A stretch of DNA of 35,222 bases from Oscillospiraceae bacterium (GTDB lineage: Bacteria > Bacillota > Clostridia > UBA1381): contig JAFLUB010000029.1 in assembly GCA_022509025.1 (NCBI GenBank), forward strand, positions 1 to 35,222, read 5' to 3'. Shown piece by piece: positions 5,341 through 33,637 of this stretch. Each line of letters starts with the position of its first letter. Within the stretch, counting starts at the first letter, position 1. A program made the position numbers and the translations under genes. The notes beneath the pieces were generated by a model. It saw only the letters and a list, made by a program, of their open reading frames with translations, was not told where the DNA came from and did no database searches.

Positions 5341-8300
5341 TTAATATTCACATGCTGCAAGCAATATATCGTTATATGCCCAGTGTGACGGGAATACATC
5401 CTCAAACGGACAATCAATTGTTCCGGATAATTCCGCTGTCATTTTTCTTCCGAGAACGCGGTTAATCATAGCCACAGCCTCGGCGCGGGTTATCGGATTT
5501 TTAGGATAGAATAATCCGCCTTCATATCCGCTTATAATACCCATTTCATACAATGTGTTAATCTGATTTTTGCACCAGCCGAACTCGGCTATATCATAAA
5601 ATGCATCCTCAGTTTCATCATCAGCATTTATACCGATAAATCTTGACACTATAGCGACAAATTCTGCTCTTGTCATTATATTTTCAGGACGGCATGATCC
5701 ATCCTCATAACCGGACAGATATCCTCTGGAAACAGCGAAATTAATATAATTTCTGTACCATGCGTCTTCTCTCACATCCCGGAAAATGTCATTATATAAT
5801 ACGTTTGAGTCAAAGTCGCCATTTAGCACTGACAAAATCTTTGCAATCTCAGCGCGGGTGACAGTGTCATCAGGTCTGAACTTCATTATACCGCCATAGG
5901 AAGAACCGCTGATATACGGTTCACCGCTATCCTGTACCAGTCCGGGAGTTGTTGTGCCCGGTTCTGACGTTTCAGACGGATTTACATCCGTACCGGTTCC
6001 CGGCGTCTGAGTCGGCTCTACTGTCGGCTTCGGCGTAGCGTTTTCGCCGCCTAAAGGACCACCCGAATTACTGTCGTTCTTATTGCTGCCCTTCTTTTTA
6101 GGCGTAACTGTTATACTTACGTAATACGTACGCTCTACGCCATACTCATTCACAACAGTGTAAGCAACAGGCGTTTCCGCTGACTCTGTGAAATCAACCG
6201 GTCCGCGCGGTGAGTAATCCACTCCGTCAAATTCAACCACCGGTTCTATGTCTGTCAATAAAGAACCGTTCTTCAGAGTCAAAGTGATGTTATTCTCTTC
6301 AAATACCGTCTCAGTATCCTGAGTCTCCACTGCAAAGCCCGTGATAGACGGGTCATGACCAAGCTTAATTACATGGACAGTGTATACTATATCATCATCT
6401 CCCGAAGAAGACAACGTATATGTCACAGGTTCATTGAAGTTCTGCGGTTCATCAATTGCGGGGGTTATATTATCCGCGTCAAATGTCAGCACCTTCGGTA
6501 CAACCGCCGAAATATCCAATGTGTACGGAACATTAATATAGATATCGGTTCCGTCAAACACGGTTTCACCCTCCTGAATTTCATCAGGGAGCGCAAACTC
6601 TATAAGATCACGCGGTGTGCGGCGCGGTATCGTTATACCCTCGCCTGTATACGTCATACTATAGCCGTCCAGCTTAATCTGCAACGTGTAATTTTTTTCA
6701 TTGACAGTATCATAGTTAACAGGAATATTCAAAATCAATAACGCTTTTCTGTCATTGAAAGAGCTTATTTTTCCGGTTATCTTCTCACCTGTATCTGATA
6801 TAGCAACCACTTCTGCAGACTCGAAGAATATTCCATCAATTGTTACAGGGACACTACCGCCGCGGAAATTGCTCGGGGATACAAACGAAACTTTTGAAAG
6901 CTCCGGAACTCCGTCACGCGCTATATGCACGGTGTATTGTCTGTCCTCATCATCCGCCGCAGAAACTGTGTAGACAAGCGACTTTGTATCATTGTCAAAA
7001 TCCTGCACAGGCTCTGAAGGAGAATAGCTGTCTCCGTCTATTGCGACAATGGTCGAAAGATTATATATATCGGTATCATAGCGTACTTTTATATATACAT
7101 CAGTATCAGTGATTTCCGCCGCGCCTACCTGGTTATTTACTATGAAGTTCGTGATAGTTCTCTTCTTTCTGCGCGGCACTGTTATTGTGGCAGGAGCGCC
7201 GTAAGGAATCGGGTCTTCAAAGCCATCAAGGTAGAATACCAATGTGTATCGCTTATCTTCCGTAACACTATAGTTATATGGAAGATTAAATACTGCGGAC
7301 GCATTGTGCCATTCGTCAAAGGTTACATCGCCTTCTATTTCTTCGCCTTCTCCATCTACCGGAACTGCCTTTACCTTGAAATCATAGAAGAATATACCCT
7401 GTACATCCACATTAATCTCTGTATCCTTAAATGTTTCAGGCGTATCTAATATGTTCACGGACGTTATAGAAGGAAGTCCCTGACGCTCAGCCGAAACGGT
7501 ATACGTTCTATCCGTGTCGTCATCCGCTGAAACAGTGTATATTACTTCTTTCTTATCAAAGTCCTGAGCAGTCGTTGGGGTGATGCTGTCGCCATCATAA
7601 CGGATAACCGGACGAATTGATGTTAAATCAAAATTATAAGGTACTGTGAATACTATTTTTCCACTATCCTCACCTTCGGTGATATCCGTTGAAGCAGAGC
7701 CGTTCACGCCGAAATATGTTATCTGACGCGTTTTACGTCTGGGGATAACAATTGTCGTTCCGTATAGCGTCTGCTGCACACCGTTGACATATACCTTTAT
7801 ATCATATATCTTATCAGCGGTAGTGTCTAAATTCGCAGGTAATTTGACAGAACCTGTCGCACGGCCTGAGTATCCTTCATACTTAACAGTTCCTTCTATC
7901 GGAGTTGCGCCTTCATCGCGCAATGTTATTGTAAATGTTACTTTATCCTTCGGAATATCAGTTTCCAGATACGGTACAAACAGACCTTCTATATCAAATG
8001 TGATATCCGTGTCACTGAAATTCACAGGCTGAGTCAGCGTAATCTTGTCAACCTTCGGTGAGCTTAATCTGCCGACATAAACTTTGTATTCTTCAGTAGA
8101 CAAATCATCCGCTGTCACAGTATACGTTACAACATTATTGAAGTTCTGAGCGCCCGTCGGAGCATAGTGATGACCGTCATAGAAAACTTTCGGTGTTATA
8201 CTTCTTAAATCTGTGTTATAAGGAACATAGATATAGATATCATTTCCATTTCTCGTCAGCTCACTCTGTCCATCCACAAGAATAATATCTGAAAGATACT

Positions 8301-14451: not shown

Positions 14452-14480
14452 GCCTGTCACCCTCCTATAATTATTCAAGA

Positions 14481-15884
14481 CTAATTTACCCACGGATAGT
14501 ACGCTTCAAGAGGTGTTGAGAATCGGTATCTTATCGCTGCCGCATCGGCTCTGTTAAGAGTGCCTTCCTTAGTAACATCCCACACACGCGCCTCTGTTAC
14601 TGTTGCGGGCTTCTCATCTTTCTTTTTATCAAGATGATTCGCGTCAATCGCGTTCACATATCCGTTGCCGTCAACATCGCCTATACGACGGACAACCATG
14701 ACATAACGATAAAGATCGTCTACATCCTCTACATCATATGTAACTTTATAGAGGTCATCTGCACCATTTACTTTTTCCATCGTATATTCTGATGCTATGT
14801 TTCCAACACCCTCGGCATATAGTCCGGGATCTTTGAAATTCATTATATCTCTTACTATTACAGTATATTTATCAGCATCTAAATCCACGTTAATCCCCGG
14901 AATATTAAACTTCGGATAATTGATATCTCTGAATACGCGGTTCGGATCTGACTTGAAGGCATCCAACTTGCTTTCTTTTTCAGTCTCCGCTATATTTTCA
15001 CTGAAAATTAAAGCTGCGGGAGAATTTCCCAAATTCATGTAAGCAGTACCCGCGATAGTCAAAAGAGCATTAGCATACGCTGTTTCATAATTCGGATTAG
15101 TCGTGTGAACCCTTACATCATATATACCGGGTTCAGTCGGTAATTCTGAGCTATACTCCGCATCTCCACGCTTACGATACATAACAGCGTATCCGGCTTC
15201 AGGCGGGGTTACGGTTACATCTTCATCCGTTATCTCAAATATTCCGCCCTCAATGTATTTAAAATACTTATCCTTTACAGAAATCTGAGCTGTCCGATAC
15301 TCTATAACAATATACTCGGCACCTTCTCTTTTTCTTATGGAGCAGCCTTCGGGAGGACGTACATCTATATAATATGTACCTGCTTCCTGAGCGTACTCAA
15401 GCTTATCATTACCATAGAGCACCGTTGGAACCAACTCCGCTTCAAGCGGCAAACCTGTGTAATAATCAAAGCATTCCACCGTTGCAATGTGCTGTTCACC
15501 GTCATATAAAATAATATCATCAGACACTGTCACAATAACGATTATAGGTCTGCGAGATACACCCATTTCGAAAGTAACCAGCGCGCTTGTTCCGTCCGTA
15601 TGGGTAATACGGACGTTCATATTTTCAAAGGTTCCGGTGGAGGTTGGAATACCTGTGACCGAACCATCTGAATTAATTTCCAGACCTTTAGGTTTAGAGC
15701 CGGACACATATTCAAACGAATATCCTTCGTTTCCGCCCTTCATTTCAATCTGAGCGCTATATTCCTTATACGCTTCGCCTCTGGGCAGCTTTGTACTTAC
15801 TACATCAAAGTCCGCCGCATGCGCACAGATGCCCGTCACAAGAAGCAGCGTGCATATAGTAAAAAATGCGTATAGTTTTTTCAT
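14481..15884 (-). CDS. P5: secreted Ig-like protein with GNSP module and dockerin-like C-terminus
   Basis: 467 residues from the ATG at 15884 (GGAGATG 6-10 nt upstream). A longer open frame to 16034 only reads through the hairpin array. Signal peptide 1-22 (MKKLYAFFTICTLLLVTGIC); a putative-Ig (He_PIG-like) domain 22-105 (GLEINSDGSVTGIPTSTGTF); MBG-like beta domains to about 280; a shortened GNSP module 283-395 (MNLGNSPAALIF, FKDPGLYAEG); then a dockerin-like pair, GDVDGNGYVNAIDANHL and DVTKEGTLNRADAAAI, in which positions 1, 3, 5 and 12 carry D/D/N/D in repeat 1 but D/T/E/D in repeat 2, so the second site is weaker. It has no cohesin-like or SLH part and would be a terminal dockerin partner. 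P6 follows after 29 nt. No clear promoter was found in the gap upstream. Confidence 0.85.
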   Translation of the reverse strand: MKKLYAFFTICTLLLVTGICAHAADFDVVSTKLPRGEAYKEYSAQIEMKGGNEGYSFEYVSGSKPKGLEINSDGSVTGIPTSTGTFENMNVRITHTDGTSALVTFEMGVSRRPIIVIVTVSDDIILYDGEQHIATVECFDYYTGLPLEAELVPTVLYGNDKLEYAQEAGTYYIDVRPPEGCSIRKREGAEYIVIEYRTAQISVKDKYFKYIEGGIFEITDEDVTVTPPEAGYAVMYRKRGDAEYSSELPTEPGIYDVRVHTTNPNYETAYANALLTIAGTAYMNLGNSPAALIFSENIAETEKESKLDAFKSDPNRVFRDINYPKFNIPGINVDLDADKYTVIVRDIMNFKDPGLYAEGVGNIASEYTMEKVNGADDLYKVTYDVEDVDDLYRYVMVVRRIGDVDGNGYVNAIDANHLDKKKDEKPATVTEARVWDVTKEGTLNRADAAAIRYRFSTPLEAYYPWVN

Positions 15885-15889
15885 ATTAT

Positions 15890-16088
15890 CATCTCCATTC
15901 TGGTGGTTGTTACATTTCTTCGGCACTCCGTGCCGGTATACTTCGTCACAATGCTTCGCATTGCCGCAAACTGGAAAATATTTTGCTTCGCAAAAATTTG
16001 TCTCGGCGTTTGCTTGACTCGTATACGTTCGCAAACTTTGCTTTGCAAAGTTGCTGCATCTCCATTCTGGTGGTTGTTGTTACATTTC
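15890..16088. repeat. Direct repeats of the P5 leader flanking a hairpin array
   Basis: The 29 nt at 15890-15918, which contain the P5 ribosome site, recur at 16057-16088 with a 3-nt insertion. Between them, 15919-16056 is almost fully palindromic: CGGCAC/GTGCCG (15921-15935); CAATGC/GCATTG (15949-15963) with a TTC loop; a TTTTGC-TTC-GCAAAA hairpin (15981-15995); AACTTTGC/GCAAAGTT (16034-16052); and long-range pairs GTATAC 15936/16021, GTCA 15945/TGAC 16015, GCAAAC 15966/GTTTGC 16008. This is either an inserted palindromic element with duplicated flanks or a structured leader RNA. It covers most of the 333-nt gap, which holds no gene. Confidence 0.75.
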
Positions 16089-16143
16089 CGATTGGTTATA
16101 GCATTCGCAAAGTGAATGCTATAGCAAATTGGAAATGCAACAA
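16077..16143. repeat. 30-bp imperfect inverted repeat
   Basis: Arms 16077-16106 and 16114-16143 pair around a 7-nt loop with about five mismatches; the inner ten pairs (TATAGCATTC/GAATGCTATA) are perfect. It lies between the P4 terminator-like hairpin and the leader duplication, and overlaps one of the direct repeats. Confidence 0.75.
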
Positions 16144-16144
16144 C

Positions 16145-16167: not shown

Positions 16168-16217
16168 ATTATTACATTTTACAAACGTGTTATCTTAAAC
16201 ACGTTATTCATAACTAA

Positions 16218-19200
16218 TTATTCAGCAGGAGTTTCCTCTGAACCATCAGCTGCGTCCTCGGTTTCACCGTCTTCCGCATTTTCATCATTGGCTGTCTCGC
16301 CATCAGCTACTTCTGTATTGTCCTCACCGTCCACTACAGTTGTATCAACAACGCCTTCAGGCTCAGTTGCATCCTCAGGTTGTGACTCCGGAACGCTTGG
16401 TGAATTCAGCTTTCTTTCGTTTACAGCAAGGATGATGTTAGCTTCAGCCCAGTGACCTGCGATATCGAACGGATTGAATGTTACAACCGGTGTTGACGGA
16501 GCAAGAACATTATTAATCATTGTTACAGCCTCTGCTCTTGTCAACTGTCCATACGGAAGGAATGAACCGTCCACATAACCTGTAACGATACTCAATCTTG
16601 CAAGAGTTGTGATATAATCCTTAGCCCAGTCAGCAGCAGTTACGTCTGTGAACATACCATCTACTGAAATCAGGTCATATCTCTGAGCTCTTGTTATTAC
16701 AGCACAGATTTCTCCTCTTGTTACAGGATTCTCAGGTCTGAATGAACCATCCTCGTAACCTGATAATACATTGTATGCCTCGAGGTATCCAACGTACTTA
16801 TTGTACCATATATCAGCCGGAACATCAAAGAATGATGATGAATAAGTAGCAGGGATATCATCGCCGTTTATCAATCTTGCAATCATTGCTGCAAGCTCTG
16901 CTCTTGTGATGTTATTATCCGGTCTGAATGAACCATCCTCATAACCTGAAGCGTACGGCTTCGTGTATTCATCGTTAATCAACGGCTTATCTGTCGGAAC
17001 AGGAGTTACTACAGGAGCCGGCTTGATTGTTACTACTACAGACTTCATAACACCGTTTACAGTAGCAGTAATTTTTACCTGACCTTCCTTAAGAAGTGTT
17101 ACTTTACCATTTTCGTCTACAGTTGCAAGTGATTCATTTGAAGACTTCCATGTCGGCTTACTTGTTGAACCTGTGATTGTCGGGTTAAGAGTTATTGTGT
17201 CGCCCACATATCCTTCATAGCTTGACGGATCAAAGGTGATTGTAATGCCAGGGCCTGATGAACCGCCGCCTGATGTCTTAGTCATAAAGAGAACTGTTTT
17301 CTCTCCAAGGGTGTACGGATATTCAATCTTCTCTGTTCCTGCCTGATCTGTGTAGTAAGCCTTGAATCCACTTGGCTTACCGTCCACAAGAACAGCATGA
17401 ACCTCAGCGTCACTGTTAACTGTTGTCTCGTTTGTATAGCCTGATCCTAACTTATTTCCTGTTGCAGGATCTGTCTTTGTCTTGTATACTTCTACGTAGT
17501 TCTTGAATGTTTTAACTGTCAGCGCATCTGAAGGCTCTGAGTAGTCATGGTTATTATCTATCGGCTTACGTCTTACTCTTACAGTAACATCCTTGCCCTG
17601 TGCTAGATCGCCTGACTCAGGACTATCACTCCACTCGCCACCGTCAAATGAGAACTGATATTCATATTCATCATCCGGAGGTGTTACAACAATATGATTT
17701 GTTGAAGGATCTATCTCTACGTTAGACTTTGTTGAATCGACATTCTCCTTCGGCTTATTCACCGGTGTATCAGGCTTATCCGTAGCCTTCTTCTTAATCA
17801 AGGCTTCATCTACTGTTGATGTGACAGGATTGCCGTCCTCATCTACGATTTCGTAGTTATCTTTACCGTCGCCTGTTATAGTAAGCTCGGTTATATCAGC
17901 CTTTGTCTTAGTATCTGAAGCATCGGTATTCTCAAATTCTACTGTGAATGTAATTCCGATATTGTCGCCTTCCTCGTTAGGATCTTCAACGAAATTATAC
18001 CAATTATCGTAATCCTTACTCTCAGATTTCTTAACGCCATCCCAATCCTTTTCAATTGTGAAGTCAATATCAGAAAGCTTAATCTGCTTTTTCTTTACAA
18101 TGAGCTTTTCTGGCAATTCCGGAGCCTTTGTACCATCGTTTTCATAATTGAATACAAGGTCTACAGTGCCATAAGCAAGTGTCTTCACGCCTAAGTCGTC
18201 GATTGTGATTGCAGCGTCGCCAAGCTTAACAGAACCACCGTCAGTTAAGAATTGCTCCATAGTCAGAGCGGGAGCTGCTGCAATTTCCTCCGGTGTCATA
18301 CCCTCGTAAATAATCTTAACCTTAAGCGCGCCTAAGTCAAGCTTGTTATTCGGATATGTGTATGTATTATTATCAGCAAGACCTGTTACTTCCAGCTCTT
18401 TAATATTCTTGTTTCTGACTTCACCTGTTGCTACTGTTATATCAACAATTTCATAGTTACGGCTATCTGTGCCTGAAAGACCGAGTCCTTCTCCCTCCCA
18501 TGTGATAGTTACAGGAGCTGTTTTGCTTGCGGCATCTATATTAGTATATTCATACTGATATGTCAGTTTAACAGTGTCATCTTCATAAATACCATCTGCT
18601 TTTGCAGGTGTCAATTCTTCTTCAGGAACTACTTTTTTCTTATTTTCGTAATCCTTTACGTATACCCACGGAACATCAAGTGATGTGACAGTGATAGGCT
18701 TCGCTATGATTGCACCCTTTAAGCTTGTGAATACACCATCATCTAATACGAAGTCATACTTATTATTAATTGCAGCAACTGCTTCAGCTGAACCCTCGGC
18801 ATCTGTTGCTACTGCCAATACTGTGCCTTTATAGCTTACAGGCTTCTCCGGATCAGCAGTCTTATCCTCATATTCAAATGTCAGTCCGCCAAGATCAACC
18901 TTTGCATACAGAGCTTCATCCTCTGTAGCAATCTTGTTATCATCAGCAACAACAAGAGCAAGAGTTCCGTTAAGAGCAGCTGTATCATCAGCATCTACAG
19001 CCGGTGAATTATTATATGTCTTGCTGATTGTTACGCCGGAAGCGTCAGCTGTTACCTTCAAGACCTTTTTATCGATTCCGAGCGGCAATGACGAGCCTAT
19101 TGTTTTTTCTTTATAGACAAAGTCAATTACTTTACCATTCATCTCTCTCGTCAGAAGCTCATCCGCATCGATTGGTTTGCCATCTATCTGAAGCTCTCCG

Positions 19201-21523: not shown

Positions 21524-24500
21524 TTAATCTAAGAAATAGTCTTCATTTAATTCCGGATAGAATGGAGCAAGCGGAGCCGCACTACCTTTACTTGCATAGT
21601 TTAAAATTTTAACCTGGTCGTTTGCATTCATAATTGAATTCATATCCGTATCAACAACTCTGTAAAGATATAGACTACCAACACCTTCTGGTGTTATATT
21701 TGCATCGTAGAATGGTGCCGCACTACCTTTACTTGCATAGTTTAAAATTTTAACCTGATCATTTGCATTAACTATATTGTTCAAATCCACATCACCAAAC
21801 GGGAACAGAACAACAACCTTACGAGTAGCCTTTATCATCTCACCCGTATGTGGATCTTCAAATGAATATTCTAATTCATAAATATCAGGTCTTATGAAAT
21901 TCTTATCCTCTGATGTCACACTTGAGAATGTGAATCTCGGAGCAACATCAAATACGCTGATATCGTCCATTGCCTTGCCACTCATATCTTCCGAAAGGTC
22001 GTTTTCTGCAAAGCGATAAACCTTTATTCTTCTTGTGATTCTGACATTATCATGCTCTGCACATTCATCAGAAATATCATGACCGAGAGAATCCTTTGCG
22101 ATGAAACCCGGATCAGTAAAGCTCTTATGTTGATATACAAAGATTGCTGTCGTGTTTCTATCAAGATTTATCTCAGGGTCTGAGAAATCTATTTCTGTAT
22201 TATTAACATCACCCCAAGCATTTAAGGAATAGATTGTTTTGCTATTTAAATTTACATTCTTATCCGGTGCGCCGTCAGGAGTATAGTCCGCTAAATGGAA
22301 CATATTTTCATAATCCGCATTGTTATTTGCTCCTGATGCGTCTGTTCCTGAAACGAATAATTCCTTAGCGAGAGCTGCCTTTGCAGCATCCCATTTTTCT
22401 GATTTTACCATCCACTCAATCATACCAAACGGTGAGTTACCCGGATTCAACACAAATCCTGCTTCAACAACCTTCTGAACATGGAAGTGATATTCTGATT
22501 CCCTCTTGTTGTCTTCGGTGTGCATCTTGATATCGATATCAGTTGGGTCTTCGCCAACCTTTTCGATGTCTACATGAACAGTGAAGGTTCCGTCATCATT
22601 CTTTGTGATATCTTCCGGTGATACAGGCTTACCGTCTACAGTAACCTCAAGCTGGTCCTTAGTCATATTCTTATCTTCAGGAGTGATAACGATATCAACC
22701 GAATCAGTTTCCTCACCGACTCTTACGAAGTAATCATTATCACCTGCCTCATTATCTTTATCATTCGCAGGATCGAACGGCTTAGGCTCTACATATGAAT
22801 CATCCATAAGGTCGAGGTCTTTCTTTGCGTCTTCTCCGTCATCAACCTGTACTTTGATGTCAGTTGCTTTTGAGCTATATAGCTTAATAACGAATTTGAT
22901 TCTTTCCCATGGCATCATATTTTCAATATCTGTGTCAATGGTCTTCACATTTTCGCCCGTTGTCTTTGATTCAAGAGCTCCAATCTTATAGTTTAGAGCC
23001 TTACCTGTTGTCTTAAGAGTAACCTGTACGGCATATGTGCCGACAGCTTCCGGAACAGTTGTGATTTCAGGACCAAGCTCGTCTGTATCAACCTTGTCGT
23101 CACCGTTTGCATCTGTCCACAGATAATACTTGATGTCATAGATACCTGCTTCCGCATCAGCTTCTGCAATTCCCTCTACAGTGATTTCAGGATCTGCTAC
23201 CTCACCCTGGTTCTGCTCCTGCTTTGCAGGGTCAACCTTTACAGTGAGAAGCTTCTGGGTGATATCAAATTCATCAGGGTCTACTCTTACGATTTTAGCC
23301 TGCTTTGCAAGCGCAGAGTCCGCCTTCAGCGCTACCTTAATTTCATAAGTTCCTACATCAACAAGCGGAGTTTCAGTGCCACCCTGCTCATATGTTACTG
23401 TAAACTGAGAATCCTCGTCAATCGTCATGTTTTCGAAAGCTGTACCGAGTGACGCGCCCTTAGAATATTCTCCGTCATCTCCGGCTACTGCATAATAAAC
23501 ACTATATGTAATATCATCAATTACTGAGCCTGTGTATTCAGCATTATCCTTATCAGGTACTACATACAGATTCATCTGCCACATTGCGTAGAATTCAGTA
23601 TCAGCATCGAATGTCATATCCTTAGTATACTTAACGCCTCTCTGGTCTTCAGCGCCCTCCTGAGCAGGGTCAAATACAAGTTCACCTGACTCATTAACTG
23701 AGCCCTTATACCAACCGAGGAATTCCGCGTTGCCATTTTCAGGCTTATCGATATCATAACCAATCGCATCACCGGTTACAACCTGCTTCTTAATCGGCGT
23801 TCCGCCCTTCGGATTAGCAAGGTCTGTGTTAGGATAGAATGTGATGTCTATTATGTCATCCTCATTAACTTCATCTGATATATCCCACTTAGCATAGACA
23901 GTGATTTCATAACCTTCGCCAAGCTCTTCCATATAGTCTGAAAGGTTATCGCCGAACTTTGTTGTAGCTGTGATTTCAGTACCTGTGCCATCAGGCTTTG
24001 TGAACCAGCCCTTGAAATCATAGTTCTTTCTTTCCGGCGGATCCGGCATATTGCCATCGCCTATAGCATCATCATAGTATACGTATTTAACATTCGGATT
24101 AGCGTCAGGGTCAGCTTCGTTTTCGCCTACTGCATTGCTATCGAATATTACCTTAACGCCATTTTTCTTAGGCTCAGGCTCTTCTTCCGGATATTTATCA
24201 ACATCTTCAGGGTCTATAGCAGCCCACTGAGCGTATAATGTTACCTTTGAATCTTCTATAGTTTTACCCTTAGCAAGAACATCTGCATACTTAAGCGTTT
24301 CTGTTGAATCCTTTGCCGGAATATACTCGCCCGCGCCGTTCTGCTTTGTGTTCCAACCAACAAACTCATAATTCTTTCTTGCAGGCTTCGTTGTCGGATC
24401 TTTATATTCTTCATTCGGAGCGCCCTGCTGCTGTTCCGGTCCTGCTGTTATGGTTTCTTCTTCAGTCATGTTGTCATTATATATAACAGTTATTAAATCC

Positions 24501-26791
24501 GCATACTGAGCATAAACTGTGACTTCACCACCATTTTCTGCTGTTACGCCGGAGAATGTGTCATTAATCGGTGTAGCCGCCTCTAATTTTGTTCCACTTT
24601 TATCACTTTCACTTGTGTTCCATTCGCTAAATGTCTTACTCTTATCAGGATTATCAGGATTAGCAGGCATTGCATCACCTATCGAATCGCCGTACTTTAC
24701 AATAACCTGAGCATAATCCTTACTGTTATCCAAGTTATCCTTAAATTTAACTGTTACCGCGTCTTCGCCTTCATAATCCCAATGAGCATAAGCATATACG
24801 TCTTCTTTATCCATCGTAATGCTTGTTGTACCATCAGCAGGTATTTTATTTTCAGGTGTTCTGCTTGTTGCAGCCGGGTCATTATACCAGCCCTTGAATA
24901 CATAACCGTCTTTTCTTGTCGGGTCATCAGGGAACTGATCCTTATAAATTGTTTCGCCTGAAATTACAGTTATGGAAGACGGAACAAGCGAAGCATCCAG
25001 CTTTGCAGGGTCACATGCCTCCTTAAAGTACAATGTTACCCATTCTTCGTCATCCGGAAGAGGCTCATCATCCTCATCGTCATTAGCTTCCCACTGAGCG
25101 TATAATTCAGTTGAGGTAGCAAAGTTCTCAGCAGCTAACGCAGCTGCGTCTGCATAAGATTTTCCGGAACCGTTACGCTTTTCGTTCCAGCCCTTGAAAT
25201 CATAGTAATCTCTTGACGGTGTATTTACATCGTCAGCATCAATGTTTTCTCCATCATCCAAGGTGAATTCCTGGCTTTTTCCTAAACCGTTGTCTCCTGT
25301 GCCGTCGTTATCATAAAGAGTGATTACTCTCTGCTTTGTCCAATGAGCATACAATGGCGTAGCTGCATCAAATGTCTTTTCAGTAAAGTCTATTTTGTTA
25401 CCATCCTCTGCTGCATCAAACCAACCTAAGAATGAATATCCGTCAGGAATATCAAAGTCAAATTCCGGAGATTCTGTATTTGTAACCTTTCCTACTGTCG
25501 GAACCTGACCTTCAAGCAGTTTCCCGCCCGGAAGAATTGTTACAGGCTTGGTTACCGCGTCCTTAGACGGATCAAGGTCTGCCGGGTAATTTGAATTAAA
25601 TGTTATATCTATACCGTTTTCATATACTGCATATACTTCAAGAGTGCCATCATCGCCTACCTTGTCAAAGGTCAAAGTTGTGTCCTCAGTAAACGGAACT
25701 GATGTCGGCATCGGAGTAGCGTCCGGTTCTTCCGTATCTGGCACAACCTCGGTATCATATGCAAGACCTGCAAATGCCTTGCCGGAAGGAGCATTGAAAT
25801 CCAAAGCTGTCGGAATCTGAGCTTCCTTGCCCGCTTCTTTAACTGAGTTATCTTCCGGCACCTCTGTGATAGTCGCTATCGGTGTTGTTGCCGGAGCACT
25901 ATCCTTAGCGTCTTTGTCATTATAGAAATCCACATTATATTTTGCCGGGAAGAAGTTGACTTCCTTTTCGTCTAATTTTAAGTAATTATGCAATCCTTTG
26001 ACTGTGGCATTATATGAATACACACTGCTATCACCAAGAGCAAGAGCAAGATCTTCACCGCTCTTAGAGAAAGATAAAATTTTGGGCATTTCTCCAATAT
26101 TTGGAGTTTTTAGAAGTTGAAACTCTATAAAACCCATGTAAACCTTATTTCCCATCTTATAACGGCGAGCACCGTTATTAAACGGCTGTATCACAACAGC
26201 AGTATTATTTTTCAAATTTTGTGGAACTTTCGCCTCTGGTTTAACTTCCTTTTCTGAAACTGCTGCTTGGAAATAACTTCCGAATCTCCAGTTTGAATCT
26301 ACACTGCCCGTTCTTTGACTATACAACATACCATAAGTATCTTTAATATCGCCCTGATCATCTAAGCATTCCGATGATGGTTCTAATTTTAAATAATCAG
26401 GATCATAAGCAATACCCATCTGTAACTGACGGAAACCCGGATTCACAACTTCAGTATAATTATTAAAGTTGTAAGCTACTATTCCGACGATAAATTTTGA
26501 TTCTTCATTTTCCAAACCAGCATTATCAATAATATCTTGTTTAGCTCTTTCAACAGGTTCTGTCCCACTCAACTTTACAAGCTTACCTTTGTTGTCTCCA
26601 TAAGTATCTTCCCAGTCATCTCCTACTTCAAAAAGCTCTAAAGAAAGTGTTGGTATGTTTTTATCATCTGTTTGATCTAAATCGCTTACCAGTACACCAT
26701 CGTCATATTTAAACGCACTGACATTAGCTGCACATGACAGCATCATCACTCCTGCCAATAACGATGATACTATTCTCTTAAATTTCCTCAT
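21524..26791 (-). CDS. P3: cohesin-like module, InlB-type repeats, GNSP module and dockerin
   Basis: 1755 residues from the ATG at 26791 (AAAGGAGA 8-9 nt upstream), 22 nt after P2. Signal peptide 1-27. Residues 30-290 match the P4 N-terminus almost line for line, including DDWEDTYGDNKGKLV, TYGMLYSQRTGSVD and YKMGNKVYMGFIEF. About 300-1080 hold seven clear Listeria-Bacteroides (InlB B-type, Flg_new) repeats with the pattern YxFKGWxxxxxG...LYAQW, plus a diverged one at the start. MBG-like domains follow, then a cadherin-like beta-sandwich. The GNSP module is at about 1447-1660 (NPGNSPFGMI, FTDPGFIAKD, FIRPDIYELEYSF) and a dockerin-like pair at 1660-1745, each repeat carrying D, D, N, D at positions 1, 3, 5 and 12 and the helix QVKILNYASKGSAAP. 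No enzyme domain. Confidence 0.88.
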   Translation of the reverse strand: MRKFKRIVSSLLAGVMMLSCAANVSAFKYDDGVLVSDLDQTDDKNIPTLSLELFEVGDDWEDTYGDNKGKLVKLSGTEPVERAKQDIIDNAGLENEESKFIVGIVAYNFNNYTEVVNPGFRQLQMGIAYDPDYLKLEPSSECLDDQGDIKDTYGMLYSQRTGSVDSNWRFGSYFQAAVSEKEVKPEAKVPQNLKNNTAVVIQPFNNGARRYKMGNKVYMGFIEFQLLKTPNIGEMPKILSFSKSGEDLALALGDSSVYSYNATVKGLHNYLKLDEKEVNFFPAKYNVDFYNDKDAKDSAPATTPIATITEVPEDNSVKEAGKEAQIPTALDFNAPSGKAFAGLAYDTEVVPDTEEPDATPMPTSVPFTEDTTLTFDKVGDDGTLEVYAVYENGIDITFNSNYPADLDPSKDAVTKPVTILPGGKLLEGQVPTVGKVTNTESPEFDFDIPDGYSFLGWFDAAEDGNKIDFTEKTFDAATPLYAHWTKQRVITLYDNDGTGDNGLGKSQEFTLDDGENIDADDVNTPSRDYYDFKGWNEKRNGSGKSYADAAALAAENFATSTELYAQWEANDDEDDEPLPDDEEWVTLYFKEACDPAKLDASLVPSSITVISGETIYKDQFPDDPTRKDGYVFKGWYNDPAATSRTPENKIPADGTTSITMDKEDVYAYAHWDYEGEDAVTVKFKDNLDNSKDYAQVIVKYGDSIGDAMPANPDNPDKSKTFSEWNTSESDKSGTKLEAATPINDTFSGVTAENGGEVTVYAQYADLITVIYNDNMTEEETITAGPEQQQGAPNEEYKDPTTKPARKNYEFVGWNTKQNGAGEYIPAKDSTETLKYADVLAKGKTIEDSKVTLYAQWAAIDPEDVDKYPEEEPEPKKNGVKVIFDSNAVGENEADPDANPNVKYVYYDDAIGDGNMPDPPERKNYDFKGWFTKPDGTGTEITATTKFGDNLSDYMEELGEGYEITVYAKWDISDEVNEDDIIDITFYPNTDLANPKGGTPIKKQVVTGDAIGYDIDKPENGNAEFLGWYKGSVNESGELVFDPAQEGAEDQRGVKYTKDMTFDADTEFYAMWQMNLYVVPDKDNAEYTGSVIDDITYSVYYAVAGDDGEYSKGASLGTAFENMTIDEDSQFTVTYEQGGTETPLVDVGTYEIKVALKADSALAKQAKIVRVDPDEFDITQKLLTVKVDPAKQEQNQGEVADPEITVEGIAEADAEAGIYDIKYYLWTDANGDDKVDTDELGPEITTVPEAVGTYAVQVTLKTTGKALNYKIGALESKTTGENVKTIDTDIENMMPWERIKFVIKLYSSKATDIKVQVDDGEDAKKDLDLMDDSYVEPKPFDPANDKDNEAGDNDYFVRVGEETDSVDIVITPEDKNMTKDQLEVTVDGKPVSPEDITKNDDGTFTVHVDIEKVGEDPTDIDIKMHTEDNKRESEYHFHVQKVVEAGFVLNPGNSPFGMIEWMVKSEKWDAAKAALAKELFVSGTDASGANNNADYENMFHLADYTPDGAPDKNVNLNSKTIYSLNAWGDVNNTEIDFSDPEINLDRNTTAIFVYQHKSFTDPGFIAKDSLGHDISDECAEHDNVRITRRIKVYRFAENDLSEDMSGKAMDDISVFDVAPRFTFSSVTSEDKNFIRPDIYELEYSFEDPHTGEMIKATRKVVVLFPFGDVDLNNIVNANDQVKILNYASKGSAAPFYDANITPEGVGSLYLYRVVDTDMNSIMNANDQVKILNYASKGSAAPLAPFYPELNEDYFLD
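21577..21769. repeat. Two near-identical 53-bp repeats in the P3 dockerin
   Basis: 21577-21629 and 21717-21769 are almost identical at DNA level and encode the calcium-loop end plus the QVKILNYASKG helix of each dockerin half. Two further copies lie in P2 at 26848-26900 and 26989-27041. Identity at the nucleotide level suggests recent duplication or ongoing gene conversion. Confidence 0.85.
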
Positions 26792-26813
26792 TGCTATTTT
26801 CTCCTTTCAAAAT

Positions 26814-29000
26814 TTATTTTAAATCTATATAAAATGGGGCAATCGGCGCTGCACTACCTTTGCTCGCATAGTTTAAAATTTTAACCTGGTCATTTGCATT
26901 CATAATTGAATTCATATCTGTATCAACAATTCTGTAGAGATACAGATTGCCTGCGCTTTCCGGAGTTATGCTTGAGTCATAGAATGGCGCTGCACTACCC
27001 TTGCTCGCATAGTTTAAAATTTTAACCTGGTCATTTGCGTTAACAATATTGTTCAAATCCGAATCACCGAACGGGAACAATACAATAACCTTGCGGTAAG
27101 CACTTACAGTTTCATCTGCAATAGAGTCATAGAATGAATACTCCATTTCATAGATGTCAGGCCGTATAAAATTACTATTCTCCGATGTAATCCGAGTGTA
27201 CATATAACCCTCTGCAACATTATTCATTGTTATATCATCCTTGTTATCCTCGGTCATATCTTCCGAGAGGTCATTTTCTGTGAATCGGTATACGCTTATT
27301 TTACATGTTACAGAGGTAATATCATTACCCATGGAATCCTTGGCTGTGAAACCCGGTTCTTTGAAACTGCTATATTGATATATAAATATTGCAGTCGGAT
27401 CTCTATCCGGATTCACATCTGGATTATCAAAATCTATATCTTTGTTTTCAGTATTGCCCCATGCTGCTAATGAATAGATTGTTTTATTATTTACAGCTAA
27501 TTCTTTGTCCGGAACGTCATCAGGGGTGTAATCAGGATTATGGAACATTTGTTCATAGTCCGCATTATTGTTTCCGTTTTCGTCTTTTCCGGTTATAAAG
27601 TATTCCTGAGCCTTTTCCGCATATTCCTCAGTCCATTCATCTTTTTCAACCATTCGCTGAATCATGCCGAATGGTGAGTTACCCGCTTTCAGTTCTATCT
27701 TCGGTTTAAACAGTCGCCGGATATGGATTCTGTATGTAGTTGAACCATCTCCAATGAGTACAGTGTTATTAAATCCGTCCGTGTCTATGCTCGTATCGAC
27801 TGTATTTAGCATAAACACATCCGTTACCTGATAGCCGCCATCAGTAGATTTGATGGTAAGACTTGTGTCGTTAACCTTCATCACGGAAGGCGCTGTAGAT
27901 GCCGCTATTTTCAGCTTCAGCGTTTCCGTTTCATATGGCACACTGAGATAATATTCATACGCTCCGGGCTTGAACCCGTCCTTCGACATTGTTATTTTAT
28001 TTGTCGAAAGCGTATATTCCGTGTCCTCTGTTTCCTCGCCTGACATCGGTTTAACCGGAATAATATCATTTATATCCAGTTCAGATGAGGAGTTGCCGAA
28101 CAGGCTTATATCTCCATTGAAGGTGAACAGAGTTTTCATATTTGTCTGATCATTGGGATCGGTTACCGTTGCTTCCCATGCAGAATACGGGTCTACTCCC
28201 CATGAACCCGCGCCGATATTCAGCGTTTCAGGTCCGCGCACAAGGCAGAGCACTGTCGGGTTCTGGTCAATGTCGCTTTCCGCCGGGACTTTTTTCACCT
28301 TAAACGGGAGCTTTGCAAGGTATTGCTTCTCTTCACTCGCCAAGCCATTGAACCTCGCCTTTGTCATATCCGGCGCATCCTCGCCGGTATCCTTCATGGT
28401 TATGCACACAGTGCACATCTTCCAGTGCGGGTCAGCGGCTCGGTTTTTGCCGTTTGTGAGATCTTCTCTGTCATTTACATCGTCAATGTCCGTTTCAGTT
28501 ACGGATATGACTTCATACAAACTTTCATTCCACCATACATCATTATTTGTTCCACTTTTAAGGTTTCCGCCTATTAGTGCTTCTTTCCATGTTGTACTTT
28601 TTGCAAGGCTGTATGGCTCGATATATGAGCTGTCATATTCAAACGCTAATTCGACGGAATACACACCCTTTGTGAACAAATCGAGGTCATGAACCTTATC
28701 GACCGCAACACCTACCCAGAACTCTGTCTGATCTCGTTCATCCTGCGAGTTGAGGGAGGCGTTACCGGGACTGACATCCGTTGGGGTTTCGCCTCTTCCC
28801 ATGAAATCTACATAGAGTTTTCTTCCGGAAGTGCTGTCGCTTCCGCCGCCAGGCTCTTCGCCCGGCGCTTCCGTAGCTCCCGGAGATGCTTCGGGGGTTG
28901 GTTCAATGTCATCATCAGCCCATGCGACCGGAGTACAGAGCATTGACGCACATAATGAAAACGCCGTGATGACTGATATTAACTTTTTGTTTATTTTCAT
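26814..29000 (-). CDS. P2: cohesin-like module, GNSP module and dockerin
   Basis: 728 residues. The ATG overlaps the P1 stop as TAATG, and AAGGAGGTG lies inside the end of P1, so the two are translationally coupled. Signal peptide 1-28 (cleaved near VAWA-DD); Pro/Glu/Gly linker 30-60; a cohesin-like beta-sandwich about 60-290 (FWVGVAVDKVHDLDLF, LAFEYDSSYIEPY, YLAKLPFKVKK); a cadherin-like beta-sandwich about 335-425 ending TTYRIHIRR; GNSP module 430-640 (KAGNSPFGMI, FKEPGFTAKD, FIRPDIYEMEYSF); dockerin-like pair 645-725 with GDSDLNNIVNAND and DTDMNSIMNAND, each followed by QVKILNYASKGSAAP. The last 290 residues are nearly the same as in P3. The shortest cohesin-plus-dockerin protein of the set, and the best one for testing binding. 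Confidence 0.88.
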   Translation of the reverse strand: MKINKKLISVITAFSLCASMLCTPVAWADDDIEPTPEASPGATEAPGEEPGGGSDSTSGRKLYVDFMGRGETPTDVSPGNASLNSQDERDQTEFWVGVAVDKVHDLDLFTKGVYSVELAFEYDSSYIEPYSLAKSTTWKEALIGGNLKSGTNNDVWWNESLYEVISVTETDIDDVNDREDLTNGKNRAADPHWKMCTVCITMKDTGEDAPDMTKARFNGLASEEKQYLAKLPFKVKKVPAESDIDQNPTVLCLVRGPETLNIGAGSWGVDPYSAWEATVTDPNDQTNMKTLFTFNGDISLFGNSSSELDINDIIPVKPMSGEETEDTEYTLSTNKITMSKDGFKPGAYEYYLSVPYETETLKLKIAASTAPSVMKVNDTSLTIKSTDGGYQVTDVFMLNTVDTSIDTDGFNNTVLIGDGSTTYRIHIRRLFKPKIELKAGNSPFGMIQRMVEKDEWTEEYAEKAQEYFITGKDENGNNNADYEQMFHNPDYTPDDVPDKELAVNNKTIYSLAAWGNTENKDIDFDNPDVNPDRDPTAIFIYQYSSFKEPGFTAKDSMGNDITSVTCKISVYRFTENDLSEDMTEDNKDDITMNNVAEGYMYTRITSENSNFIRPDIYEMEYSFYDSIADETVSAYRKVIVLFPFGDSDLNNIVNANDQVKILNYASKGSAAPFYDSSITPESAGNLYLYRIVDTDMNSIMNANDQVKILNYASKGSAAPIAPFYIDLK
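26848..27041. repeat. Two near-identical 53-bp repeats in the P2 dockerin
   Basis: 26848-26900 and 26989-27041 repeat the P3 dockerin segments at 21577 and 21717. All four copies run in the same direction, so recombination between P2 and P3 copies would delete or duplicate about 5.3 kb. Confidence 0.85.
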
Positions 29001-32000
29001 TATCCGCCACCTCCTTCCACGGTGCCGCTATGTGTACTTTCACCGGAGACGTTGCCATAGAACTGAGTTATGTGGTCTATTCCGGCTCTGATATGATTCG
29101 CGTCAATTGCGTTGAGATTGCCATCTTTATTGACGTCACATACGCGGTATTTGAACAGATTTCCGCCGGCTGTGTAGCTTGATTCAGCCGGGAAATTACT
29201 ACTGTTATTACTGTTAGTCAAATTAGTGGAGAATCGGTTCACAACTCTTGACGCGTCTGTTTTATCTGTTTCACCGCTGATATTGACATCACCCAAAGGA
29301 GATAAGATAATCATAGGTTTTTCCATTTCAATAATTGTTCCGTCAAAATCCACGAACGAATATATCAGTTTATAGCAATCAGGACGGATTCTTTTATCTG
29401 TCAGAGCAGTTATTCCTTCCGGCGTGTCTTGCAGCTGAATGGTTGACGATTCTACATAGTAGAAATCGTCTGTACTACCGTTCTGGTAGGCTGGGCTTGA
29501 TATAAGGACGTTAACCTTTACTTTCTTTGAAACATTGTTGATATCGACCGGATCACCGATTGAATTCATAAGGCTCTTAAAGCCCGGATCGCCAAACGGC
29601 ATTTTATCGTTTACAACAAACAGCGCTGTGGGGTCTTTATCATAGTTAGGACTGCCGTTCCAAGCTTTTTCGGTATATGGCACATTCTGAGCCCCTCCCG
29701 AAGGAGTGTTATCCTCTGTTGTGAACATATTACCGTTTGCATCGAATTCTTTTATACTATTTTCCTTCTCTTCATCGTCCCAGTACGGATCGCCCATAAT
29801 CAATCCGTACGGAGAATTGCCGTAGGCAAATGTATAAATCTTTGACTGAGGTAACTTTTTATAGATATGGATTGTGTAACCTCTTTCAATTATTTCAGGA
29901 TTTCCTTCTTCATCCTTTTTTTCGGGATCTTCAACCCTGAAGGTTAATTGAATAACGTTATGACCTAATAACAGGTCGATATTCTCTGATTTATAGTAAC
30001 CGTCACTATTGTCTTTTTTCGGTACGGCAAGTATTTTTATCTTTGGAGTGTCTTGTCCCGGCTCGTCTCCTTCACCGGGTTGATCAGGATCTGTATTATC
30101 TCCGCCGCTTCCGCCGCCTTCACCGTTATCCGGTTCTTCGGTTGTTGTCGGCTCATCACCGCCTTCATCACCGCCTTCATCACCGCCTTCGTCAGGCGCA
30201 AGGCTTTCTGTCGGGGTTTCGCCGCCGCTTTCTTCACCGCCACCTTCAGGCGCTTTGGTTTCCTCAGGCGCTTCCGTCTCTTCGGGGTGTTCTTCTCCGC
30301 CCGGTCCTTCGACTACAAATTCTTCGAAGTCGGACGCATATTCATAAGTCAGTGTCATTTCGGCATCTTCAGCACCCTTAAAGAGCTTAAACCACAGCAG
30401 AACCTGATCAACATCGGTATCAACTGCTACATAATATGCACGCTCTGTAGGGTCGAACAGTGTTCTCTGCCATTCCGCATTACACAATGGCTGGTCTTCC
30501 AGTTTGACACTGTCCTTGACAATCAAATCTTCAAGTTTCAGGTCTGATGCCACTGTTTCTTTGAAGTGGGCTTTTATCACAACGTCACCTTCTGGCATGG
30601 TGAACCATGCTTCCGGATCGTGTGCGCTCGGGTTGAAGAAGCTATTGTCCGGAACCACCGGTTCTTCCTCATTTCCCGGTTTCTCTGTTGCTTCCGGTGT
30701 TCCCGGATCGCCCGGGTCTTGTGTTGCTTCCGGAGACTCTTCCGGATTGTCAGGGTCGTCCGGTTCCTGTGTTGCCTCAGGAGTCTCCTCAGGTTCTTCA
30801 ACTGCAGGACCGCCTGAAACAAGTTCCCAGCCGGTGAACTCACAGTCTTCAACTGCTTCAGCTATTATATCGACTTGATCACCCGACAAGGCTGTGGTCG
30901 TACCTGTGACGGTACGCGCTGAACCAAAGTCTTTTTCATCATCGTCTACTATTATCGTTATGTTATATGTCCGCCCTAAGGTTACCTTGAAGCTTATCTT
31001 GAAGGTATCCAGGACTCCGTTATTCGACAGAATGTAAACATCACAGACATAATTTGTATAGCCTTGTTCTATGTCATCCTCAAGGACTCTGAGCCCATGC
31101 AGGGTCGTGATGTCAAAGTCTACCTTTTCTCCGCTTCCAAGGAAGTCGCAAAGGTCTTTCGTTATAACAAATGCTTCATGACCGTCCGCAGTTGCCGCAA
31201 TTACCGCTTTTAAGCCGTATATATCGGTCGCCATTCCTATATTGCGGACTGTGAAGGATTTGGTCTGTAATTCATCATAGCCATATCCTTCCTGACGCAT
31301 GCTAAATATATAGTCAGGGATATCTTCAATAACTTCATCCCCGTTATTTTCTAAAACATAGTATTTAATTGTTATAGTTATTTCCTCAGGGTTCTGAACC
31401 TTGCCATAATTCGTATATATATAACCGTCAGTATTGGCAAGCGTTCCCTTGATAGTTATAACCGTTCCCGGCTGCGACGGGCTGCTGCCGTCCACCGACT
31501 GCCACCTTGTAACCGTGAATGTATGCAGGGCACCCTGTTCCGATCCGTCTGTTCCGTCATATGTGGTGTTTATCTTATGGGACGGGACAGGCAATGTCAT
31601 CGTGGTCGGAAGGTCTGACAGCTGCATGGTTTCCTTTATCGGGAACAGAGCCGAAAGTGATCCGGAATAGTCGAATACATAGTTACCGCTTCCGTCTGAT
31701 GTGTCGCTATCCGCTTTGAGATAGTAATTATTTCTCGGTTCGGGCAGGAAGCTCACGTAAGCGCCGAAGCTTTCATCATTAGGAGCCTTTGCCGCTATAT
31801 AATACGTTCCCGCGCGATTACCAAGGTTTATAATCTGCGCTATAAGCTTCTCATTGTCATTATCTATATCCGGAGATAACGTGATAGTCGCTTTGCCGCC
31901 TTCGATTACAACCTTGAATTCTCCGTCTTCCAGCGTATCCTTGTCAATCACCTGTCCGCCCGGAAGCTTTATCCTGAATTCAGTTCCCTCTTCAATCTCA

Positions 32001-33637
32001 GCCACTTTTTCTTCTCCGATTCCAATCTGAGAATCGTCCGGAGCTGGCTCGGCTGATTCGGAATTATAGAAACCATCAGGTCGTTCTTTATATTGTACTT
32101 CTACTACAAGTTCTCCGTCGTCGTTAACCTCGCTGTCAATAACCTCAAGCTCGAACGGAAGGTCTGTTTTATTAAGTACAACCGATCTGTAAACCTCTAT
32201 ACCCGGAATATCCGAAACTGTCAGCCACGGATAGTTTATTGCAAAGTTAGCATCATTTATGTCTATATTCGTTACATATTTATAGGTCGCGTTCTCCTCG
32301 CCCCAGTTATCAGGCAGTTTGCTTTCTCCCGTGTCTTCAAGCGTGTAATTGCTAACTGCTACATCGGGCAGTGCATAGTTCTGGATATATGTATCCAGTA
32401 CCGGATGCGCAGCGCCCGGCAAATTCAGCTGTGATATATCCGTCGGGAAATCACTTGCTCCCGCCCAGTATGTAATACTTTCATCATCAACCGCAAACCC
32501 GGTCAGGTTTATCGGTGTAACATTGACTTTGACCGAAATCTCATATTTATCACCAAACATCTGGGTTACAGTGTATTCTCCGCCTTGCGGATTCCAGTCG
32601 AAGTTATTCCATCTCTTGCCGTTAACCTCGCATTCATCTGTCCATTCGAACGGGGTCGGAACCTCGGAGGTGTCTGTATAATGCATGGTGAGCATATTTG
32701 CATAAGTGTTCAGGTAGTCAAGCAAATCCTGTTTCGGATTCTCCTTATTGCTTTCATTATATATGCCATACGATGTGACGGTGAATTCATCCTGACGCGG
32801 CTTAACGTCCGTAAGCTCTGCTTTGATATTAAAATCAACGTTCACATAGGTCTCTGCACGAATCTGAGCCTTAAGGTCATCCACATCGTTAATATAAAGT
32901 AATGCCAGACCTGTGTCAACATCTATTGAATTTTCATTTTCCCAAACATATCCCGGTACCATATTGTTTATCGGAACAACCGTAATCAGGTTGTTCAGCT
33001 GACTCTGACTGAGCTTAGAAAATTCGCCCGGATTCTTTATGTTGAAGCTCAATGTGCCAAGCTTCAATTCGACATTATTCTTTTTCGCCATTATAGCCAG
33101 ATATTTATGACCGTCTACATCTATTGTTTCAACATATGGAACCTCGGTGTCTGGATGTTTATCTAAAAAGCTTTCGTCCGGATTGAAATTCATTATAACA
33201 TATCCGGTATCTTTTCCATCTTCTTGGTCAGCCATACTGAGGATAGTCGTATTAAATCCAACATTGAAGGAGTACGAAGCATCCACGAAAAAGTCACTTG
33301 GGAATATGCTTTCATTCTGGATTAAATATGTATGTTCTGAATTGAATCGTTTAAGATCACCCAAATATGGCGGATTGACAATAGGTTTATTATCCTCAGC
33401 ATTGGATAATTCTATATAGTTCCGATCGTATTGAACACAGACGGTGGTACTGATTGTATCTATATCTTTAATGGTAATGTCAACAAAGCCCTGCGTTGAT
33501 GAACCGTTCGTTACCAATTCCATGCCGGTAAAGGACAATTTGGCATTCGGATATCTATCCAAGGCAAATGCTATTACAGATACCAAAAAAAGTGCAACAA
33601 ATACTATTATTGCAGACTTTTTATGTTTCTTAATCAT
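29000..33637 (-). CDS. P1: large exported protein with cohesin-like N-terminus, GNSP module and dockerin
   Basis: 1545 residues from the ATG at 33637, preceded by AGGGGGTGGG; an in-frame TTG at 33670 has no site. Signal or uncleaved anchor 7-27 (SAIIVFVALFLVSVIAFALD). A cohesin-like beta-sandwich spans about 30-260 (FVDITIKDIDTISTTVCVQY, YIELSNAED, ELKLGTLSFNIKNP). A long run of unassigned beta-rich sequence follows. A divergent InlB-type repeat (900-1025: CEFTGWELVSGG ... WFTMPEGDVVIKAHF) is interrupted by a Pro/Glu linker, and a cadherin-like domain (1030-1255) is interrupted by a Gly/Glu/Thr linker. The GNSP module is at 1262-1440 (YGNSPYGLIMGD, FGDPGFKS, IRPDCYKLIYSF) and the dockerin-like pair at 1442-1525 (GDVNISGETDKTD, DVNKDGNLNAID). 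The C-terminal VEGGGG overlaps the P2 ribosome site. First gene behind the promoter at 33741-33769. Confidence 0.87.
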   Translation of the reverse strand: MIKKHKKSAIIVFVALFLVSVIAFALDRYPNAKLSFTGMELVTNGSSTQGFVDITIKDIDTISTTVCVQYDRNYIELSNAEDNKPIVNPPYLGDLKRFNSEHTYLIQNESIFPSDFFVDASYSFNVGFNTTILSMADQEDGKDTGYVIMNFNPDESFLDKHPDTEVPYVETIDVDGHKYLAIMAKKNNVELKLGTLSFNIKNPGEFSKLSQSQLNNLITVVPINNMVPGYVWENENSIDVDTGLALLYINDVDDLKAQIRAETYVNVDFNIKAELTDVKPRQDEFTVTSYGIYNESNKENPKQDLLDYLNTYANMLTMHYTDTSEVPTPFEWTDECEVNGKRWNNFDWNPQGGEYTVTQMFGDKYEISVKVNVTPINLTGFAVDDESITYWAGASDFPTDISQLNLPGAAHPVLDTYIQNYALPDVAVSNYTLEDTGESKLPDNWGEENATYKYVTNIDINDANFAINYPWLTVSDIPGIEVYRSVVLNKTDLPFELEVIDSEVNDDGELVVEVQYKERPDGFYNSESAEPAPDDSQIGIGEEKVAEIEEGTEFRIKLPGGQVIDKDTLEDGEFKVVIEGGKATITLSPDIDNDNEKLIAQIINLGNRAGTYYIAAKAPNDESFGAYVSFLPEPRNNYYLKADSDTSDGSGNYVFDYSGSLSALFPIKETMQLSDLPTTMTLPVPSHKINTTYDGTDGSEQGALHTFTVTRWQSVDGSSPSQPGTVITIKGTLANTDGYIYTNYGKVQNPEEITITIKYYVLENNGDEVIEDIPDYIFSMRQEGYGYDELQTKSFTVRNIGMATDIYGLKAVIAATADGHEAFVITKDLCDFLGSGEKVDFDITTLHGLRVLEDDIEQGYTNYVCDVYILSNNGVLDTFKISFKVTLGRTYNITIIVDDDEKDFGSARTVTGTTTALSGDQVDIIAEAVEDCEFTGWELVSGGPAVEEPEETPEATQEPDDPDNPEESPEATQDPGDPGTPEATEKPGNEEEPVVPDNSFFNPSAHDPEAWFTMPEGDVVIKAHFKETVASDLKLEDLIVKDSVKLEDQPLCNAEWQRTLFDPTERAYYVAVDTDVDQVLLWFKLFKGAEDAEMTLTYEYASDFEEFVVEGPGGEEHPEETEAPEETKAPEGGGEESGGETPTESLAPDEGGDEGGDEGGDEPTTTEEPDNGEGGGSGGDNTDPDQPGEGDEPGQDTPKIKILAVPKKDNSDGYYKSENIDLLLGHNVIQLTFRVEDPEKKDEEGNPEIIERGYTIHIYKKLPQSKIYTFAYGNSPYGLIMGDPYWDDEEKENSIKEFDANGNMFTTEDNTPSGGAQNVPYTEKAWNGSPNYDKDPTALFVVNDKMPFGDPGFKSLMNSIGDPVDINNVSKKVKVNVLISSPAYQNGSTDDFYYVESSTIQLQDTPEGITALTDKRIRPDCYKLIYSFVDFDGTIIEMEKPMIILSPLGDVNISGETDKTDASRVVNRFSTNLTNSNNSSNFPAESSYTAGGNLFKYRVCDVNKDGNLNAIDANHIRAGIDHITQFYGNVSGESTHSGTVEGGGG

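Follow-up and report, generated by a model that had tools for sequence, protein, structure and literature searches.

The minus strand of a 35,222-nucleotide stretch of DNA from an Oscillospiraceae bacterium (contig JAFLUB010000029.1, here called the window; contig C22 of genome G000, which is 87.55% complete) is filled from position 5341 to 33670 by six large open reading frames (ORFs), and the question raised by this locus is what their products build on the cell surface. A preliminary description had proposed a head-to-tail assembly of cohesin-like and dockerin-bearing proteins, and the six ORFs were found where it had placed them. In the order of transcription these are O6, O5, O4, O3, O2 and O1 (P1 to P6 of that description), and all have N-termini which, judged by eye, resemble signal peptides. 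In our opinion the products of the locus are probably the building blocks of a non-covalent surface fibre that contains no enzymes and is held together head-to-tail by cohesins and dockerins. The computed basis of this proposal comprises domain content, the predicted cohesin folds of O6 and O5, the profile homology of O3 and O4 to O5, gene order, SLH domains and the likeness of presumed partners within each genome.

The first element of such a fibre would be a cohesin at the N-terminus. O6 (ORF at 29000-33670, with a likely ATG at 33637, hence 29003..33637; all coordinates of the six proteins are on the minus strand) and O5 (26814..29000) have N-modules (at 32810..33547 and 28092..28826, respectively) that adopt a cohesin jelly-roll in the predicted structures, which are models built on shallow alignments. 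In the N-module structure comparison, ranks 1-38 were all occupied by cohesin entries and the first pilin appeared only after them. The preliminary description had named the fold of these modules as one test of its proposal, and both models came out as cohesins. The N-modules of O4 (21524..26791; module at 25949..26719) and O3 (16218..21497; module at 20658..21425) are close copies, sharing 68% identity in the window, and their common profile aligns with that of the O5 N-modules (hhalign 99.1%, E 7e-19), by which they are judged to be homologous to the cohesin-fold module of O5.

The second element is found at the opposite end of O6, O5, O4 and O2 (14481..16034). These proteins share a C-terminal unit, in which a conserved "GNSP...F.DPG" module, some 200 residues long but shorter in O2, stands directly ahead of a double EF-hand-like repeat of dockerin type. 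The dockerins lie at 29051..29293 in O6 (two unlike repeats, better conserved between genomes), 26844..27068 in O5 (a near-identical repeat pair, with NANDQVKILNYASKGSAAP in both) and 21572..21796 in O4 (in sequence a near copy of the O5 dockerin). Pfam Dockerin_1 is above the cut-off in O2 (E 4.2e-7), whose dockerin is canonical, and under it in O6 (20.0 vs 22.9 bits); it is absent from the listing of O4 and O5 (E up to 0.1), in which the double repeat is nevertheless plain in the sequence. A joint profile of 19 C-modules (18 from O6, O5 and O4 of six genomes and one from O2) has the dockerin of Ruminococcus flavefaciens ScaH as its best PDB match (E 2.8e-5), 8 of the 19 match Dockerin_1 at E up to 1, and the O5 model has helices at 655-666 and 702-713. 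The dockerin ends claimed for P1-P3 are thus upheld by the double repeat and the ScaH match, but not by Pfam, which places P1 under its cut-off and leaves P2 and P3 unlisted. The GNSP-dockerin profile gave 39 matches in 13 of 61 related genomes (the own one counted); in the five genomes with the six-gene locus (own, G016, G021, G023 and G028) 22 of 22 matches fall inside the locus, and the remaining genomes hold 17 of the 39, with the proviso that locus modules served to build the profile, so that divergent ones could escape.

The third element is a wall anchor. O3 ends in SLH domains (three stretches at 16416..16910, approximate bounds; Pfam E 9.2e-31), and O1 (5341..14493) is a second SLH protein (E 7.9e-27), which agrees with what had been said of P4 (the N-terminus of P3 with an SLH end) and of P6. 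Between their ends the proteins differ: O6 has a long multi-domain middle, O5 a cadherin-like domain, O4 Flg_new repeats, O3 YDG and Big_2 domains, O2 a He_PIG Ig-like domain and O1 weak beta-helix and DUF5018-like matches. As had been described, O2 combines a dockerin with no cohesin-like part detectable by Pfam.

For none of the six proteins does Pfam list a glycoside hydrolase, lyase or esterase family (E up to 0.1), in agreement with the claim that neither of the first two is encoded here, or a cellulose-binding module. A cellulosome-like complex with enzymes encoded at other loci might still have its scaffold here, since adaptor and SLH-anchoring scaffoldins of cellulosomes share the domain pairings of this locus, according to PMC11557425, and two members of the genus carry 10 and 14 Dockerin_1 matches. 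This explanation is highly improbable, given that each subunit has a single cohesin, that no cellulose-binding module is listed and that the own genome has three Dockerin_1 matches (E<=0.01), two in the locus and one on a 205-residue protein. None of the three is on an identified enzyme, a count that applies to a genome 87.55% complete and would miss dockerins as divergent as those of O4 and O5. The 205-residue protein is encoded on contig C1 (L038:5359-9869), close to an SLH protein and to a protein with Cu_amine_oxidN1 and a Pfam cohesin, and the three make up a second, small cohesin/dockerin set. The two genus members (G015 and G018, 77% and 84% complete, respectively) have no GNSP-dockerin match and perhaps follow a cellulosome-like strategy instead.

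Conservation of the layout was assessed in relatives, mostly metagenome-assembled genomes. Searched with O5, 9 of the 70 genomes in the family gave a match (own included), and the named collection yielded 11 loci, whose sources by name include rabbit ("Lapin") and goat gut as well as Lachnospiraceae bacterium MD329. The locus labels L049, L050, L051 and L052 correspond to genomes G023, G016 (MD329), G028 and G021, respectively; G016 is labelled as the same genus as the window, and L051 and L052 are a sister pair. According to two papers, MD329 is an isolate from the mouse caecum that is available in culture, Longibacillum caecimuris (GTDB genus CAG-41), and was under the detection level in the colonised mice of that study. 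The order O6-O5-O4-O3 is kept in five relatives (G023, G016, G028, G021, in which O6 is cut by the contig end, and L059), and chance is therefore unlikely; O2-O1 come next in all four relatives in which this stretch was read. A second architecture, in G014, G025 (L056), G031 (L054), L053, L055 and L057, starts with a giant protein (see below), followed by a two-dockerin fusion of an O6-like protein with an O5-like N-module, by a secreted protein of 640-820 residues and then, in G014 and G025, by an SLH protein some 5,000 residues long or more. Such a gene fusion is a further indication that O6 and O5 act together. The 640-820-residue protein was considered as a cohesin from a by-eye likeness and rejected (hhalign merely 0.3% and 3.1%). 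Among viral contigs, 16 pattern matches yielded no relatives.

Identities of the modules were compared over six genomes (window, L049, L050, L051, L052 and L059). The C-modules of O4 and O5 are 55-77% identical within a genome, whereas O4 or O5 orthologues share a mean of 36% between genomes (14 pairs each, the sister pair L051/L052 excluded). The N-modules of O3 and O4 behave in the same way, with 53-92% within a genome in five genomes and a mean of 26% between orthologues. The between-genome means of the other modules are 43% (O5 N), 37% (O6 N), 47% (O6 C) and 59% (O2 C). In the C-module tree O6 C and O2 C form separate clades, and O4 and O5 pair by genome on starred branches in five of six genomes (L051 is left unresolved within its clade with L052); the starred branches require the O4 label, and likewise the O5 label, to change six times. 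For the N-modules the tree recovers O5 N and O6 N as clades, and O3 and O4 pair by genome in five of six (four starred, L052 at 94/98), with L050 as the exception. The nearest module is the own-genome partner for 10 of 12 C-modules (exceptions L051_O5 and L052_O5) and for 10 of 12 N-modules (both exceptions from L050). A single clade of O4 modules was rejected for the C-modules (p-AU, that is the P value of the approximately unbiased test, 3.5e-72) and for the N-modules (7.5e-6), in tests of a hypothesis that was itself drawn from the identity tables. As a separate observation, the O2 C-modules of G023 and G028 are 98% identical amid widely different neighbouring modules, which suggests that the O2 gene was recently exchanged.

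The two repeats within each dockerin were compared as well. In O4 and O5 repeat 1 and repeat 2 of one protein share 58% and 56% identity, respectively, whereas the same repeat between genomes shares 31% and 33% (means), and the true pairing was the best of 720 in both cases. The relation is reversed in O6 (23% within and 47% between genomes; 663 of 720 pairings as good), and the O2 values are 29% and 64% (10 of 120 pairings as good). Internally symmetric repeats support dual binding modes in cellulosomal dockerins, as set out in the relevant passages of PMC5429695. From one genome to another the recognition helices of O4 and O5 thus seem to vary in concert, at two places in each of the two proteins.

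Such likeness could also arise through neutral gene conversion between neighbouring genes and have no bearing on binding. The L059 N-pair, whose identity is 92% both overall and at fourfold sites, and that of the window (66% at fourfold sites) are what this would predict, and the fourfold-site identities of the O3/O4 N and O4/O5 C pairs reach 52-92% in the window and L059 (36-102 sites a pair). In L049-L052, however, these values (35-51%) are inside the between-genome range, at 53-75% protein identity (the L050 N-pair, at 30%, excepted), so that in four of six genomes the likeness is not only recent conversion. Moreover, the N-modules of O5 and O6 and the C-modules of O6 and O2 are not homogenised, and the two repeats within each O4 and O5 dockerin also match each other. 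Neutral conversion as the whole cause is therefore distinctly unlikely; from the codon comparison, we judge that part of the conversion is recent and the rest of the likeness is kept at the protein level.

It is the modules alike within a genome that would touch in a chain O5 to O4 to O3. This bears on another explanation, according to which the cohesin-like N- and dockerin-like C-modules each bind other surface components (wall polysaccharide, host glycan or SLH proteins) and the result is a mixed coat or S-layer with no chain. Such a coat is unlikely in view of the cohesin entries at ranks 1-38, ahead of the first pilin, the dockerin-type ends encoded in the same operon and the position of the within-genome likeness on those modules that a chain requires.

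The partner of the O6 cohesin may be encoded outside the window. In G023, G028, G016, G014 and G025 a giant gene lies about 240-330 bases upstream of O6, and its complete products have 15,713 (G023), 29,377 (G014) and 33,033 (G025) residues, while in G028 and G016 the contig stops after 13,449 and 13,547 residues, respectively. Pfam lists 67 RCC1 (PF00415) stretches in roughly the N-terminal half of the giant and 11 cadherin-like stretches in the remainder (one piece below the cut-off), and no enzyme family. An RCC1-type motif occurs 18-49 times per giant in six giants and not at all in three other large locus proteins, counted without a shuffle control. Near the C-terminus, in four genomes, there are two EF-hand-like segments whose starts are 252-311 residues apart, which by our reading are a split dockerin; from the size, position and repeats, our guess is that the RCC1 array is adhesive. 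The own genome has a homologue on contig C23 (657-53561, loci L062-L064; an ORF of 17,635 residues with RCC1 and cadherin-like domains and a split EF-hand end), which was matched by 2.6 kb of the L051 giant (E 9.7e-88, 45% identity). Upstream of O6 the window extends for another 1.5 kb, past a transposase gene; on C23, 657 bases separate the contig start from the coding end of the giant, with an ORF of IS200-like appearance (by eye) in front; transposase genes at these contig ends may explain the assembly break. The transposase genes of the window occupy 34019-35133, near the contig end, with rve/HTH_21 Pfam matches for 34318-35133, and are presumably of the IS3 type.

Taken together, these data suggest the following arrangement, for which we infer binding, calcium dependence and link order from evolution and fold. 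O3 would be fixed to the wall through its SLH domains and display its cohesin. O4 and O5 would each carry a cohesin at the N-end and a dockerin at the C-end, and the specificity common to the O5 and O4 dockerins would be matched by that of the O4 and O3 cohesins, with the result that O5 would dock on O4 and O4 on O3. Alternatively, O4 might dock on further O4 copies and form a shaft of variable length, since both halves of the homogenised pair sit on O4. The O6 dockerin would bind the O5 cohesin, the two of them, both traced by orthology, fitting as a separate pair, and the O6 cohesin would take the split dockerin of the giant, leaving this RCC1/cadherin-like protein as the distal, perhaps adhesive, end. 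Gene order would then be assembly order, from tip to wall. As to the head-to-tail chain foreseen in the preliminary description, the evidence agrees with anchoring by P4 and with a lack of enzymes, and the evolutionary data point to a particular wiring; P5 as the cap had to be abandoned as unsupported, since its dockerin forms a clade of its own and the EF-hand-ended giant, upstream of P1 in relatives, is a better distal partner. The GNSP module, this giant partner and the duplicated, genome-specific O4/O5 dockerin repeat go beyond that description.

Several observations weigh against the proposed fibre. At the sequence level the relationship to cohesins is weak: PF00963 is listed for none of the six proteins (E up to 0.1), for which reason we write "cohesin fold" rather than "Pfam cohesin", and was matched by just one of 21 N-modules, at E 0.1. 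NCBIfam, searched with five of the six proteins, gave nothing useful for the N-modules; hhalign of the N-modules against six Pfam cohesins of the genus stayed below 2%; and among the searches of PDB, two profiles taken singly (A8 and A9) found no chain, that of the O6 N-module (A4) had no cohesin among the matches listed, and the mixed profile (A5) gave weak matches, the top three being cohesins (E 0.018-0.08). The cohesin-like starts claimed earlier hold for P1 and P2 by predicted fold and for P3 and P4, whose assignment consists in homology to P2 (O5), by profile, but not by a Pfam cohesin match. O4 and O5 of four relatives have neither Asp nor Asn at the first EF-hand position (by eye), and calcium binding there is therefore doubtful. 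The rate contrast is modest (36% for O4/O5 C and 37% for O6 N), pairing being the stronger signal, and the O5 C-modules of L051 and L052 are 76% alike, compared with 68% and 75% between O4 and O5 within each. In MD329 (L050) identity between the N-modules of O3 and O4 is 29-30%, and both modules are nearer to those of L051/L052. This cohesin pair is the most different and so is the dockerin pair of the same genome, which would fit separate O5-O4 and O4-O3 links, although over six genomes cohesin-pair and dockerin-pair likeness show no more than a suggestive correlation (rho 0.77; 37 of 720 orders do as well). Finally, the own-genome giant lies on another contig with a terminator-like hairpin after it (by eye), and its adjacency to O6 is deduced from relatives, because the contig break lies between them.

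Outside the six genes, positions 4649-5113 of the window (gene E) encode a Cu_amine_oxidN1 protein with its own promoter-like (11/12) and terminator-like sites, which are consensus matches only. Positions 3-905 encode a protein without a Pfam match, whose tail, CDCDCDCDHHHD, is possibly metal-binding.

A bolder and more tentative form of the proposal, which we hold to be possible yet short of an even chance, is a cohesin-dockerin "pilus", with a non-covalent O4 polymer as the shaft, O3 as the SLH base and O5/O6 as the cap presenting an RCC1-repeat protein of 15,000-33,000 residues, and with a recognition code for self-assembly rewritten in its entirety in each species. In either form, a pairing best known for arranging enzymes would here hold a surface fibre together as its structural joint, and the proposed outer protein has 15,713-33,033 residues in the complete cases. 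Concerted change of the joints between genomes would supply a natural series of connectors for the study of partner co-evolution and orthogonality. The cultured MD329 (Longibacillum caecimuris) opens the way to experiments, yet it is the exception in the N-module pattern. Among the titles and abstract openings listed by a full-text literature search there was no enzyme-free cohesin-dockerin fibre, most subscription papers being outside its coverage, so that this is no proof of absence.

Among known systems, sortase-assembled pili have a tip, a repeating shaft and a wall-anchored base, linked covalently; the plan proposed here is similar, but its links would be non-covalent and its anchor SLH-based. 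In Clostridium perfringens cohesin-dockerin pairing joins two secreted proteins, whereas a chain of structural subunits is proposed here. Common to both is pairing outside the cellulosome, as those non-cellulosomal complexes are presented in PMC5429695. Giant1-5 of Apilactobacillus kunkeei are also very large surface proteins encoded by consecutive genes, two of them co-diverging, but they have 3,000 to 8,000 residues and beta-solenoid N-ends, and the main text of PMC12863079 makes no mention of cohesin, dockerin, cadherin or RCC1. Planctomycetota proteins of more than 5,000 residues with Dockerin_1 resemble the present ones in size and dockerin; RCC1 is not mentioned in the main text of PMC11573180, and its passages on these proteins describe no chain of partners. 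The dual-binding-mode dockerins, as covered in PMC5429695, have internally symmetric repeats like those of O4 and O5, whose repeat sequence differs as a set between genomes. With respect to cellulosomes, in so far as PMC11557425 treats their SLH-anchoring and monovalent adaptor scaffoldins, this locus differs in having no enzyme or cellulose-binding family listed, one cohesin per subunit, a single gene cluster and N-modules below Pfam detection, and it has in common with them type-II-like cohesin folds, dockerins, SLH domains and the combination of cohesin and dockerin in one protein.
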